DNA of 64,000 nt from positions 1 through 64,000 of the IMG/VR virus record IMGVR_UViG_3300049460_000157, one strand, 5' to 3'. The DNA comes from a virus. The number at the start of each line of letters is the position of its first letter. The stretch's first letter is position 1. Made by a program: the position numbers and the translations under genes. The notes under the pieces are model-generated. The model did not search any database. It was not told where the DNA came from and saw only the letters and a list, made by a program, of their open reading frames with translations. Below, one piece after another: positions 3,571 through 43,183 of this stretch.

Positions 3571-6291
3571 TCAGGACGAGGACATATCCGCATTCAACGT
3601 AATGTCCGTGAAGTTATAGACCAGAGCGTGAGACAGCTCCACTACGTCAGAGCCGCACATCAGGGTGCGGCCAAGGAAACTGTCACGAGACTCCGGGATA
3701 AAGTTGGTCGTCGTGCTGGTGCTTCCTGCATCGGTAAACAGCGAGAAGGCATCGAGTTGACCCAGATCGGTACCAAACATTTTGGCCCACTGATCACTGA
3801 TACCCTGCGCCTGCGTATTGTAATCGGCAAGTGTCTGCTGGGTGTCAGCAACGATATCCTGTGTCTCTTTATTCATGTACCCCACGTAGCCATTACCGAC
3901 TGCGCTGGTGAGCTGCAGGATATTCGCCGCTGATCCCATGTCAGCCAGCGAGAACTGGGCGCCGTTGGACATGGCGGTACCGTACGCAATGGCGATCACC
4001 GAGGCAATCGCACCCACGATGGCACCGACCTTCTCGCCAAAGATCAGGTTCGAGGCCACACCGATCAGTTTCATCAGCACCATCGCTGCAAGGGCATTGG
4101 CAATGGCGCCCACCACGATCGCCATGGTGCCTGTGAAGCCGAGTGCTGCACCCACGGCCGCATTGGTACCCAACAGACCGGCCGAGGCTGGTCCTGTGCC
4201 ACTACCCCACGTGAACCACGTGATGATAATGATGATAATGATGATGATCACGGTGAACAGCCCCGTCTGGTACCACTTCTTCTTCACCACCTTGTAGCAG
4301 TTGAACACCAGGTAGCAGCAGGCCGTCGCCATCTGCGTGGCATCGACCAGCGACGTGCTGCGGTAGATGTCCTCGTGCAGCGGGATGATGAAACCCGACT
4401 CCTCCGTGTCGTTCAGCGCATCCACCGCCGAGGTGAAGACCGAGTTGCCCCCGTAGATCATGTTCCGGTGCACCAGACCGTGCAGGGTAATGGCGGTCCA
4501 GTTGTTCGCACTCACCTGCGAGTACAGGGTCACCGACTCGACATTGATCACATCGTCGTAGGTGATGATGTCAGAGTCGCCCACGTATGCCGTTGTCTGG
4601 TGGAACGACTCGGTGGCGTTGATCTCCCACCACATGTCACCCACCTTATGGTCCGGTGAGCGCATGCCGGCGCCGGTTGTCTCGTTCACACCCGCCCAGG
4701 ACAACTGGATGAAATAGTTCATCGGGGAGTTGTTCGGCACGAACACATGCACGCTCTGCTGCGACAGGTCCGGATACGGCAGGATCTCCGGCATCGTGGC
4801 AATGTTGTCGGTCCCTGTTCCCCAGTTGGCTCGAAGCCACGCTTCATACGCCGTCCAGGAATCCTTGGCAGCCTGCCACTCGAGCTTCCATGCGTCGTAC
4901 GCATGGGTGTCGAACGAGGCCGACTCCATGATGGTCTTGAAGAACGTGTAGATGTACTTCTTGCACTTCACCTCAGCCACGTTCAGGGAGACACCGAACA
5001 CCGCATAGGCGTAGTCAATGTCCCCAATGGAGGCGTTGTCTGCGATCTGGGCAATGGTGTCATCCAGTTGACCACCCACTGACTTCTTGTAGGCCTTCTT
5101 CGCAATCGCGTAGACATCCGGCAGATAGCTGTCCGAGACGAACTGGTTGTTCAGCCGGATCGGGATATAGGGATAGAACGAGCCCATGCTGCTGGGCACA
5201 TTGAACATGCCATCCAGCACCGGGTTACCGGTGGCGTACTGGTAGATGAACACCTTCACCGCGGAGAACGTGTTGTTCGTCACGTCCTGGGTGTCCGTCC
5301 GGTACGAGCGACTTAGCACGATCGTATCGACCGTGGTCGTCACCGTCTTCGTGCGGGTGACGCCACCCGTGATCGTGTCATGCGTCACGGTAACCGTGGG
5401 CGTGCCGGCCACCACCGCCCCGGTCTGATCCTGGTGCTGGATCGAGCGGATCGAGTAGGTCCGTGTCTTGTTGGCCGGGTCGATGCCCTTGAACTGGCTC
5501 TTCTCGTACACCCGGTGGACCTCGGTGTAGGCATCAGCGGCCGGCGTGGTCGTTGTAGCGGTCTCGTCCGGGCGGCCATCCGAGTAGCTGGTCACCGTTT
5601 TCACGACCGTGTTCAGCGTGACGGGCATCGGCGTCGACACATCCGAGTCTGCGGTCCAGCCGGTGAGGTCTGGAAACGGATCCAGGGAGCCAAGAAGAGC
5701 AGGAGTGCCCGGCACGACCGGTCCACCCGCCTGACCGGTCGTCAGGATGTAGGCCGCGTAGATGTAGTTCGCACGCGAGTCGAGTCCCACCGGATTGAAC
5801 GTCTCGGTGCTGTGGTCCGCAAACGTGATCGTGATCGTGTTGCTCGGCACATCGTAGTCGGAGTGCCAGTCGGTCGTCAGCAGCGCCGGATGATTCTGGG
5901 CGATGTACTGGTCAGCCCACCACGAGCTGTCGGCCGGACCCAGGCTCGTCTGCTGCAGTGCCACGGTATAGCCGGCGTCGTGCGGGATCTGGGCAGCCAG
6001 CTGCTCGGTGTTCAGGGAATTGCCGGTGGTGATAACCCCCGAGGCGTTACCGATCACATCGTTGTAATCGGCACTGCCATCGGCCCACCGGGCAAACGAG
6101 CGCAGCTTCATGCCCGGACCATGCAGGTACGCGTTGCTGATGGTCTCCCCCATGGTCATGGTGGAGTCTCCAACGACGTTGCTGATCACCGTGGTCTTCA
6201 GGTAATTGGCCCGCTTGTTCACATCCCCAGCGAGGTTGTAAACAGTCGAGGAGACAATAGTCATCGGCCCGCTGCTGAAGATGCTCCCCAT
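3571..6291 (-). CDS. Large virion protein with hydrophobic C-terminal domain (N4 gp53-like)
   Basis: 906 residues. The first ~500 residues are soluble beta-rich sequence with TITITF and VTVTHDTITGGVTRTKTVTTTV strands. From about residue 680 follow several hydrophobic segments, including an uninterrupted run of nine isoleucines coded by an ATC/ATT repeat at about 4230-4257, and Gly/Ala-rich membrane-like helices ending in an AIVGAIASVIAIAYG stretch. Size and position before the gp54-like gene match N4 gp53. The hydrophobic end would suit insertion into the host envelope at injection; that is inference. Confidence 0.68.
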   Translation of the reverse strand: MGSIFSSGPMTIVSSTVYNLAGDVNKRANYLKTTVISNVVGDSTMTMGETISNAYLHGPGMKLRSFARWADGSADYNDVIGNASGVITTGNSLNTEQLAAQIPHDAGYTVALQQTSLGPADSSWWADQYIAQNHPALLTTDWHSDYDVPSNTITITFADHSTETFNPVGLDSRANYIYAAYILTTGQAGGPVVPGTPALLGSLDPFPDLTGWTADSDVSTPMPVTLNTVVKTVTSYSDGRPDETATTTTPAADAYTEVHRVYEKSQFKGIDPANKTRTYSIRSIQHQDQTGAVVAGTPTVTVTHDTITGGVTRTKTVTTTVDTIVLSRSYRTDTQDVTNNTFSAVKVFIYQYATGNPVLDGMFNVPSSMGSFYPYIPIRLNNQFVSDSYLPDVYAIAKKAYKKSVGGQLDDTIAQIADNASIGDIDYAYAVFGVSLNVAEVKCKKYIYTFFKTIMESASFDTHAYDAWKLEWQAAKDSWTAYEAWLRANWGTGTDNIATMPEILPYPDLSQQSVHVFVPNNSPMNYFIQLSWAGVNETTGAGMRSPDHKVGDMWWEINATESFHQTTAYVGDSDIITYDDVINVESVTLYSQVSANNWTAITLHGLVHRNMIYGGNSVFTSAVDALNDTEESGFIIPLHEDIYRSTSLVDATQMATACCYLVFNCYKVVKKKWYQTGLFTVIIIIIIIIITWFTWGSGTGPASAGLLGTNAAVGAALGFTGTMAIVVGAIANALAAMVLMKLIGVASNLIFGEKVGAIVGAIASVIAIAYGTAMSNGAQFSLADMGSAANILQLTSAVGNGYVGYMNKETQDIVADTQQTLADYNTQAQGISDQWAKMFGTDLGQLDAFSLFTDAGSTSTTTNFIPESRDSFLGRTLMCGSDVVELSHALVYNFTDITLNADMSSS

Positions 6292-33205: not shown

Positions 33206-33231
33206 AAAGCCGCCTTCCAGGTGGCTTTTTT
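33206..33231 (+). terminator. Terminator closing the plasmid-like block
   Basis: AAAGCCGCC / GGTGGCTTT with a 5-nt loop and TTTTTT. Separates the module from RNAP2. Confidence 0.88.
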
Positions 33232-33262
33232 CATTTCAGAACTGAATTTCAAGGAGCCCATC

Positions 33263-34456
33263 ATGCAGAAATTCACCGGTATGCAGTACCTCCAGATCGA
33301 CATCGCTTCCAACTACGGGCTGGACAAGAAGACCTGGGACGAGCGTCTTGCCTGGTTCAAGGCCCATGAGGACTGCCTCATGGAGATGCTGGCGACCGCC
33401 GAGACGCCGGCGCTGTACTACGCAGGTGTCAAGGCCTACGAGGCAGCACTGGCAGGGCAGGCGAGTGGCTATCCGGTCTCGCTCGATGCCACGGCATCTG
33501 GCCTGCAGATCCTCGCAGCACTCACCGGCGACCGGTCGGCCGCGGAGCTGTGCAACGTGGTCAGCACCGGCTACCGTGCAGACGCCTACACCGGCGTCTA
33601 CGACCGGATGCTGGTCAAGATCGGGGAGGAGGGCAAGATCAAGCGTACGGACGTGAAGCAGGCCGTGATGACGGCGCTGTACGGCTCCAAGGCTGTGCCG
33701 AAGGAGGTATTCGGTGAAGGCGTCCTTCTGGCTATGTTTTACGACACCATGCAGGAGGTCGCACCGGCCGCCTGGGAGCTCAACGAGGCGTTCCTCGACA
33801 TGTGGAACCCGGAGGCGCTCTGCAACAGCTGGGTGCTGCCGGATAACTTCCACGTCCACGTCAAGGTCATGAGCCAGGTGAAAGAGACAGTGCACTTCCT
33901 GAACGAGCCGTTCGACACGTTCCGCACGGTCAACGCACCGGTCGATGAAGGCCGGTCACTGGGTGCCAACACCATCCACTCACTGGACGGCATGATCGTG
34001 CGCGAGATGAACCGCCGCTGCAACTACGACCGCAACGTGGTCGACCGCGTCTACGCAGCGCTCGACGGCGAGGGCAACGCTGGCCTGGACGAAGACGATG
34101 CCATGGTGATGACGCTGTGGGCGCACTACAAGGAGTCGGGCTACCTGTCAGCCCGCATCCTCGATCACCTGTTTCACGACAACATCGATTTGGTTGACAT
34201 CGCAACGATCCGTGAACTGCTGAATAGTCTCCCGCAGACACCTTTCCAGATCATGACCATCCATGACTGTTTCCGCTGTCTGCCGAACTATGGCAATGAT
34301 CTGCGTGAACAGTACAACCTTCAGTTGCAACTCATTGCGAAGTCTGACCTGCTTCAGTTCCTGATCCGTCAGCTGCTGCAGCGTCAGGTCAACATCAGCA
34401 AGCTCGATCCCGACCTGTGGAAGGACATTGATCAGGCCGAGTACGCACTTAGTTAA
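33263..34456 (+). CDS. RNA polymerase II large subunit RNAP2 (N4 gp16-like)
   Basis: 397 residues (N4 gp16: 404), ATG 33263 with AAGGAG. Carries the catalytic motifs of T7-type polymerases: motif A SLDATASGLQILAALTGD (catalytic Asp) near 75, motif B RTDVKQAVMTALYGSK near 130 (O-helix Lys and Tyr), and motif C MTIHDCFRCLP near 330 (second catalytic Asp). Acts with RNAP1 (29170) to transcribe middle genes; in N4 it needs phage ssDNA-binding proteins for promoter access. Confidence 0.92.
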   Translation: MQKFTGMQYLQIDIASNYGLDKKTWDERLAWFKAHEDCLMEMLATAETPALYYAGVKAYEAALAGQASGYPVSLDATASGLQILAALTGDRSAAELCNVVSTGYRADAYTGVYDRMLVKIGEEGKIKRTDVKQAVMTALYGSKAVPKEVFGEGVLLAMFYDTMQEVAPAAWELNEAFLDMWNPEALCNSWVLPDNFHVHVKVMSQVKETVHFLNEPFDTFRTVNAPVDEGRSLGANTIHSLDGMIVREMNRRCNYDRNVVDRVYAALDGEGNAGLDEDDAMVMTLWAHYKESGYLSARILDHLFHDNIDLVDIATIRELLNSLPQTPFQIMTIHDCFRCLPNYGNDLREQYNLQLQLIAKSDLLQFLIRQLLQRQVNISKLDPDLWKDIDQAEYALS

Positions 34457-41457: not shown

Positions 41458-41982
41458 ATGGTGATCAATGGCAACGGGCTGCTCGCAGCAGCTCCGATTG
41501 TTGGCATGTTCCCTGGCAAGTTCAAGGCGCACGGCGTGAGCCACGGCCTGAGCGAAGCCGGGTATGACATCCGTATCAAGCAGGAGATCCAGTTCTGTTC
41601 ACTGGATCATGTCCGTCACCATGTCATCTCGGTCGAACGCAACGAGATTGGTCAGGTACAGCGCTACCACAAGAAGCCGGGACGCTTCATCCTGGCCAGT
41701 GCTCTGGAAGAGTTCGACGTGCCGTCCGACATGATCGGGATCGTGCACGACAAGTCGACCTGGGCACGGCAAGGCCTGTCGGTATTCAACACCGTCATCG
41801 AGAGCGGGTGGAAGGGTTACCTGACACTCGAGCTCGTCTACCACGGCAACGACAACCTGGTCATTCCGGCCGGCGCCGGCATTGCGCAGGTGATCTTTCA
41901 CAGGATCAGCGAGCATGCCACCTATGTCGGCAAGTACCAGGACCAGGCCAATGAGCCAGTCGCCGCAATCGCATCTGTGTGA
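41458..41982 (+). CDS. dcd: dCTP deaminase (N4 gp27-like)
   Basis: 174 residues. Family motifs: GLSEAGYDIRIKQEI near 30, VHDKSTWARQGLSVFNTVIESGWKG near 95-120 (catalytic Glu and substrate Arg), and IPAGAGIAQVIFHR near 140. Converts dCTP to dUTP, feeding thymidylate supply during phage replication. N4 also encodes one in this stretch. Overlaps the next Cys-rich gene by 32 nt. Confidence 0.92.
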   Translation: MVINGNGLLAAAPIVGMFPGKFKAHGVSHGLSEAGYDIRIKQEIQFCSLDHVRHHVISVERNEIGQVQRYHKKPGRFILASALEEFDVPSDMIGIVHDKSTWARQGLSVFNTVIESGWKGYLTLELVYHGNDNLVIPAGAGIAQVIFHRISEHATYVGKYQDQANEPVAAIASV

Positions 41983-42190
41983 GTGCTGCGCCAAGCCCAA
42001 TGGCTGGATGTTCATGGAAAGTCGATACGCACACGCCTGTGGTGAGTGCGTAGACGACGGTCTGGCCGAAGAGTGCGAGTTCACGGGCGAGTACCGCCGC
42101 GTCGAGCGTTGCGTGGGATGTACGAAGCACGGCCCGGTCAATCACACGGGCGGCTATTACTGCGGCGGCGGTCCTCGCTGCTGCCCTTAA
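41951..42190 (+). CDS. 79-residue Cys-rich zinc protein
   Basis: ATG 41951 inside the end of dcd. Eleven cysteines: CECCAKPNG, HACGECVDD, RCVGCTKHG, YYCGGGPRCC, enough for two or three zinc sites. Small treble-clef or ribbon-like protein; function unknown. Last gene before the noncoding RNA locus. Confidence 0.7.
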   Translation: MSQSPQSHLCECCAKPNGWMFMESRYAHACGECVDDGLAEECEFTGEYRRVERCVGCTKHGPVNHTGGYYCGGGPRCCP

Positions 42191-42228: not shown

Positions 42229-42257
42229 TTGACAGGTAAGGGATGTGCGGTAATAAT
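42229..42257 (+). promoter_or_regulatory. sigma70-type promoter for the noncoding RNA
   Basis: TTGACA (42229-42234), 17-bp spacer, AATAAT (42252-42257). Start expected near 42264. The -35 is perfect and the -10 matches 5 of 6, the best host-type promoter noticed in the window. Confidence 0.8.
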
Positions 42258-42275
42258 CTAGACATAACTTGTAGG
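42258..42275 (+). promoter_or_regulatory. CTAGACATAACTTGTAGG promoter motif
   Basis: Member of the recurring 18-mer family, immediately downstream of the sigma70 -10 box. The RNA locus may thus be served by both host and phage polymerase. Confidence 0.55.
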
Positions 42276-42484
42276 TCAAAAGTTGATGGATAGCTGGCAG
42301 CGCTTTAGCTGACGCCGCTGGAGACAAGGCTGGGCCTCAACGCCGAAGGCAGAGGTGAATGCGCTGCGGCGCACATCAGTCCACTGTTAACGCGGAACAA
42401 ATCGGATTCGACCGAGTTGTTAGAGCGCTGCCAGATATCCATATCCCCTGAAGGGCGAAGATCGAAAGGTCTTCGCCCTTTTCC
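42264..42484 (+). ncRNA. Structured noncoding RNA with 19-position closing helix
   Basis: 42286-42304 pairs with 42424-42442 over 19 positions with one mismatch (ATGGATA and CTGGCAGCGCT arms). Inside: a 10-bp helix with a 4-nt bulge (CTGACGCCGC at 42309-42318 with 42366-42379) capped by CCTC...GAGG and GCC-GAA-GGC, and a second stem AACAA-A-TCGG-ATTCGA-CCGA-G-TTGTT at about 42397-42420. This is a three-way junction. Promoter before, terminator after, no convincing ORF within. Not recognised as tRNA, RNase P or tmRNA; a 6S-like role cannot be excluded. Confidence 0.8.
42451..42484 (+). terminator. Terminator of the noncoding RNA
   Basis: 13-pair stem 42451-42463 with 42468-42480 (one G-T pair), GAAA tetraloop, then TTTTCC. 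Confidence 0.92.
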
Positions 42485-42511
42485 ATTAGTAAACGGAGAG
42501 AGATTTAAGAC

Positions 42512-43183
42512 ATGGCACCAACAATGAGTAGTGCTGAGCGCGATGTGCTTAATGAGCGTCGGCGGCAGATCAAAGAAGAAGGCTTCACCCATCGTGGTGA
42601 TGACCAGTACGACCCCGGCACGCTGGCGTCAGCTGCCACCTGCTATGGCATGTATGCCGCCGATATGCTGCACCCCCTGAGCCAGGGGGATGGATATGCA
42701 GCACTCGAAGGTGCGCCTCCGCTGAACTGGCCATGGCGTGCTGAGTGGTGGAAGCCGAAGACTTCACGCGATGCGATGGTCAAGGCCGCTGCCCTGCTGA
42801 TAGCTGAGATCGAGAAGTTCGACCGCAGCAACCCCGGCACCGCCAGGAACGACGACGGTGTAGCAACCTACGTTGAAGTGTCCAAGTCGACGAACGGAAA
42901 GGACGTGATCCCGGAGATGACCGATCCGCTCGGTGCGTACTGGGAGCAACCCGACCGTCAGATGATCTTCATCCGTGACGGCAAGGCGCTGCTCGATCCG
43001 CAGGACTTCAAGAAGCTGTCGAGCTACGACACATCGCTTCCGTCCGGTGTGTACCCCGGAAAGATGTGGAAGCGCACGAACGCCGGCGTCTCGTACCTCT
43101 GCTGGTTCGGTGAGGACAAGGGCGGCCACTGCTCGATCAACCACCTGCCGATCGAAGTTGCACAGCAATCAATGGCAGCCTGA
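42512..43183 (+). CDS. Two-domain accessory phage protein
   Basis: 223 residues, ATG 42512. Residues 1-105: ERDVLNERRRQIKEEGFTHR, DDQYDPGTLASAATCY, WWKPKTSRDAMVKAAALLIAEI, a common stand-alone phage domain. Residues 120-223: a domain ending PGKMWKRTNAGVSYLCWFGE, also found singly elsewhere. Fusion of two small accessory families; function of neither is known. First gene after the RNA terminator. Confidence 0.7.
   Translation: MAPTMSSAERDVLNERRRQIKEEGFTHRGDDQYDPGTLASAATCYGMYAADMLHPLSQGDGYAALEGAPPLNWPWRAEWWKPKTSRDAMVKAAALLIAEIEKFDRSNPGTARNDDGVATYVEVSKSTNGKDVIPEMTDPLGAYWEQPDRQMIFIRDGKALLDPQDFKKLSSYDTSLPSGVYPGKMWKRTNAGVSYLCWFGEDKGGHCSINHLPIEVAQQSMAA

Follow-up and report, generated by a model that had tools for sequence, protein, structure and literature searches.

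What lies in the 321-nt gap that separates the end of a Zn-ribbon-like ORF (42190) from the next ORF (42512) in this phage genome, and what might it do? The window, that is the whole 64,000-nt stretch analysed here, belongs to a 74,740-base virus record. Judging from its gene content the phage is N4-like (Schitoviridae), since it has an RNAPII subunit, a gp24/gp25/dcd cluster and, situated beyond the window, a 3366-aa ORF of the size of a virion RNA polymerase. The + strand of this genome carries rIIA/rIIB, a helicase and the DNA polymerase, and the - strand the virion proteins and the terminase. The relevant genes are:

33221-34456, RNAPII subunit
38.3-42.0 kb, cluster of gp24-like ATPase, gp25-like metallopeptidase and dCTP deaminase
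41458..41982, + strand, dCTP deaminase (dcd), the upstream gene (phrog_1663, E 2e-53)
41915..42190, + strand, upstream Zn-ribbon-like ORF with CxxC pairs, overlapping the end of dcd (phrog_19749)
42512..43183, + strand, downstream ORF, function unassigned, its C-terminal domain following the RNA in four of four genomes

Pfam gave no match for the downstream ORF. Inside the gap no ORF is common to the homologues in position or frame, in agreement with the preliminary description of this DNA, which held that no protein is coded there. The phrog_19749 ORF also occurs, without annotation, in the gap that follows dcd in a number of named phages (e.g. Axy24, Axy10, Arace01 and Ebordelon). In phage Zuri (MK863032.2, 20104-21680) the gene names are apparently displaced by one position, metallopeptidase standing on the ORF that matches dCTP deaminase, and dCTP deaminase on the ORF after it.

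The gap holds the features listed below, for which three homologous loci are cited: L002 (IMGVR 3300046457_000143), L119 (IMGVR 3300046642_000296) and L003 (IMGVR 3300044518_000003).

42229..42257, + strand, sigma70-type promoter TTGACA-17-AATAAT, with a putative start site at ~42264
42265..42285, + strand, 5' leader with conserved TAACTT..AGG and a small hairpin, P0, predicted in the window and L002
42286..42313, + strand, P1 5' strand, from the fold and double-sided changes (C-G/U-A, G-C/A-U and others)
42314..42333, + strand, P2 and P3 5' strands with conserved CGCCGCUGGAG (identity over 42299-42330: 88% to L002, 81% to L119)
42334..42375, + strand, apical module of two hairpins, from the fold (identity over 42331-42378: 98% to L119, 31% to L002)
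42376..42401, + strand, P3 and P2 3' strands with invariant CAC, AA and AACAA, from sequence conservation in three genomes
42402..42415, + strand, P4 hairpin with hexaloop AUUCGN (C-G/G-C stem exchange, loop AUUCG invariant in four genomes)
42416..42442, + strand, P1 3' strand, from the fold and covariation
42450..42486, + strand, intrinsic terminator with GAAA loop and U tract, from the fold (hairpin retained with altered stem in L119, L002 and L003)

The element proper spans 157 nt (42286-42442). In its predicted layout P1, a P2-P3 arm and the hairpin P4 meet in a three-way junction, and the apical end of P3 bears two additional hairpins. The two ends (42286-42304 against 42424-42442) form 18 pairs plus one G/A mismatch, which reproduces exactly the 19-position pairing and the junction first described, and P1 extends inward as far as 42313/42416. 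Measured against dinucleotide shuffles, the fold is far more stable than chance would provide: the minimum free energy is -76.6 kcal/mol without the terminator (z -5.82, none of 200 shuffles being equally stable) and -100.7 with it (z -7.29). The L119 counterpart, folded with its terminator, gives z -4.6.

A long double-stranded P1 and a comparable length bring to mind 6S RNA (RF00013), which is of the same size range and likewise has a long helical stem; a polymerase-binding decoy of this kind was indeed one of the roles suggested at the outset. However, no 6S match was obtained up to E 10, and a three-way junction with short internal loops departs from the 6S plan of a rod opened by one large bubble at its centre, so that this role is unsupported and, in our estimation, very improbable. 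More generally, searches of the window and two homologues against Rfam, at the gathering threshold and at E up to 10, returned just terminator-like or incoherent chance matches, and the first impression that the fold belongs to no known RNA class has held. The element contains a short stretch, GCCGCUGG..CAAG, which we take to resemble the Twister-sister ribozyme; that ribozyme is absent from the Rfam matches up to E 10. Two other suggested roles also found no support. No packaging RNA match was obtained, and such RNAs belong to phi29-like phages and are not known from N4-like ones; as for an anti-defence RNA, nothing in the analysis points to defence.

The homologues were reached by two routes. 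L002 was found via its gp25-like protein, and has both the same gene order and the same RNA fold. A two-sequence covariance model, R1, built from the window and L002 cores, independently matched L119 with 115.7 bits (E 4e-27). The L003 contig begins within the element and likely has its 3' half, in the same place and with the same gene after it; CAC, CAA, the AUUCG hairpin with an altered stem and the terminator are all retained, the model score alone being non-significant (11.6 bits, E 1.6). The family is known from four uncultured phages, three with the full element (including the window) and one partial, all at the same locus, and a three-sequence model detected no additional members among 62 loci.

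Covariation among these relatives, proposed earlier as a check on the fold, is present. Between the window and L002 alone, nine pairs have changed on both sides. Over a 31-pair core in the three full sequences, 97.8% of the cells pair, compared with 30-42% when the alignment is slid, and there are 6 double-sided pairs versus 2.8 in shuffles, a control that is weak with three rows. P1, P3 and P4 are supported by double-sided compensatory changes in these alignments, the counts being small and drawn from three full sequences and one partial. The nearly invariant P2 pairs change on one side at most in the three sequences, and L119 pairs imperfectly at the inner end of P1. Core identity is 86-88% to L002 and 81-82% to L119, while the corresponding figures for the Zn-ribbon ORF are 31% and 46%; the terminator stands at 71-76%, and the outer part of P1 at 41-50%, its sequence shifting with the pairing kept. 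The unpaired junction residues are nearly invariant, and the stretch GUCCACUGUYAACGCGGAACAA is the same in three genomes save for its one Y. The core is conserved in both L002 and L119. The apical part shows 98% identity with that of L119 and only 31% with L002, where a shorter structure takes its place, so that we read the core as a scaffold and the apical part as a module open to exchange.

The promoter (TTGACA at 42229, AATAAT at 42257, spacer 17) scores 11/12 and is the single best sigma70-like site in the window; no other site in the 64 kb, whichever strand is read, reaches at least 11/12, a level for which Markov-shuffled sequence gives an expectation of 0.1. Its -35 TTGACA is retained within diverged DNA in both L002 and L119, the former also keeping the leader motif (70% identity over 42265..42285) and the latter reading TTGACA-17-CAGAAT. 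The leader region of L119, between promoter and RNA, is occupied by an inserted ORF of 43 codons that has a Shine-Dalgarno site (L119:1329-1459; MYSIWKIILTVALITEHWSRAV...) and no match in Pfam. One might suppose from this ORF, and from the strong terminators that follow dcd in other N4-like phages, that promoter and terminator just mark off transcription units or serve to express a very small peptide, with no function for the body of the RNA. Such a reading is hardly credible, however, given a core that covaries and is far more conserved than the flanking DNA; moreover, a conserved leader peptide was considered and dropped, the homologues having no peptide frame in common.

In N4 itself, the sigma70 polymerase transcribes late genes and requires N4SSB, the phage polymerases serving the early and middle genes (PMC4496689). 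The timing of expression of our RNA is uncertain, because sigma70 transcription in N4 is late and N4SSB-dependent. The element's promoter may nevertheless work without a phage activator, because it is near consensus and lies on the + strand amid middle-type genes, in opposite orientation to the late genes.

The terminator hairpin (42450-42481) has the GAAA loop first reported; counting a G-U pair brings its stem to 14 pairs instead of 13. In a cis-acting alternative the RNA would be the leader of the 42512 gene, acting as an aptamer or binding a protein, and polymerase would pass its terminator in certain circumstances. The order promoter, conserved structured core, terminator and gene would suit this, as it is also that of riboswitch and attenuator leaders, where a conserved core and an intrinsic terminator precede a gene; relatives of the downstream gene follow in four of four genomes, a constancy that counts to this extent against a stand-alone RNA. 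In attenuating riboswitches, though, terminator and antiterminator are mutually exclusive. When the terminator hairpin was forbidden, the core fold was unaltered in three of three homologues, at the cost of the hairpin energy alone (the energies being additive), and no competing antiterminator appeared in any of the three. Because core and terminator fold independently, with no antiterminator alternative, a riboswitch or attenuator is argued against. The high stability of P1 is not that of a switching P1; 3' of the terminator a separate ribosome-binding site serves the downstream gene; and in L002 and L119 that gene is without its N-terminal domain, yet the RNA is retained. We consider a cis-acting leader unlikely.

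The position of the element has a parallel elsewhere in the group, the slot after dcd being a favoured site for RNA genes in N4-like phages. Alcaligenes phage vB_Af_QDWS595 has six tRNAs there with a tmRNA farther downstream, and another locus (L039) has five tRNAs. ARAGORN identifies tmRNA genes at L034:6319-6745 (QDWS595) and L062:1486-1859; the former, which follows the six-tRNA cluster, also matches the betaproteobacterial and permuted tmRNA models of Rfam. Could the element then be a derived tRNA or tmRNA gene, its leader and trailer grown into the long stem and P4 the relic of a T arm? Like these clusters, it is a small structured RNA downstream of dcd, P4 adjoins the P1 3' strand as a T arm adjoins the acceptor, and the P4 loop includes UUCG. 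Unlike them, it has its own sigma70 promoter and a different fold, and neither ARAGORN nor the Rfam tRNA and tmRNA models gave a match at any reported threshold. A T loop would read UUCRA with A58, whereas the residue after AUUCG is A, A, G and C in the four genomes (G in L002, C in L003), and the element is without CCA and without an anticodon arm. Such a descent strikes us as quite improbable.

The same slot in Pseudomonas phages CRC2, Ebordelon, Meara and Arace01 holds unclassified RNAs with closing helices of 17-27 bp:

L025:5830-5943 and 5957-6080, long-stem RNAs of CRC2
L031:4829-4950, long-stem RNA of Ebordelon
L030:4866-5037, long-stem RNA of Meara
L033:5025-5205 and 5312-5405, long-stem RNAs of Arace01

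Four of these have folding z-scores of -4.4 to -8.2; nine double-sided compensatory pairs are seen between those of Meara and Arace01. The CRC2 RNAs are set apart by short inverted repeats. All resemble the window element in having a long closing helix around a branched core and in being Rfam-negative, but they have no significant sequence-structure similarity to it even with speed filters off, and direct homology was therefore dropped.

Other searches were similarly negative. BLASTN against named phages, plasmids and E. coli gave no match, nor did a model search, with stricter filters, of 120 Pseudomonas-family genomes. R1 was also run on another 26 records, complete or partial, of which 13 belong to named phages; its one match, of 18.6 bits, was dismissed because it has many broken pairs and a different place in the genome. 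Scans for core-motif patterns brought up 18 + 8 viral contig stretches, coding or chance apart from the true homologues, and four bacterial contigs, all chance. In L120, L122, L124, L125 and L126 a conserved AACGCGGAACAAGGCGGGATTCGGCCCCCGCC looks similar to the 3' core, a likeness that probably arose by chance from the search pattern. Antisense targets within the phage's own genome do not rise above chance. A CsrA/RsmA sponge was rejected, GGA being not in excess (4 versus 3.0 in shuffles). In a limited search of the open-access literature, we found no earlier report for N4-like phages of a stand-alone structured RNA beyond tRNA and tmRNA.

On the strength of these sequence comparisons, the element is a real, new and clade-restricted structured RNA. 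The initial proposal, a noncoding structured RNA equipped with a sigma70 promoter and a terminator of its own, has gained homologues at the same locus, covariation, and conservation of both the -35 box and the terminator hairpin. Of the outcomes named beforehand as counting against it, a lack of covariation and an Rfam match did not occur. We infer that it is transcribed because its promoter and terminator sites are of consensus type, and think it probable that this is a stand-alone, clade-specific phage RNA, made by the host polymerase and acting in trans. Host sigma70 RNA polymerase would start at the 42229-42257 promoter and the intrinsic terminator (42450-42486) would end a transcript of ~215 nt. 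The long P1 stem would close the three-way junction, with the near-invariant unpaired GA/AA loop, CAC, AACAA and the AUUCG loop as the predicted binding surface, and the swappable pair of apical hairpins may determine specificity. Most likely the RNA would bind a host or phage protein during infection, an RNA target being less likely.

A more speculative extension, which we regard as doubtful, is that of a modular RNA whose junction forms an invariant scaffold and whose apical recognition domain can be exchanged. Made by the host polymerase in a phage family equipped with an early polymerase of its own, it would neutralise or redirect some factor of the host, and would represent one case of a Schitoviridae-wide post-dcd slot with several unrelated types of long-stem RNA. 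The conserved core can serve as a probe, be it as a model, a pull-down bait or a deletion target. The N4-like phages are the classic example of a phage that brings its own polymerase, and a near-consensus host promoter amid their middle-type genes suggests a task performed by, or upon, the host machinery.
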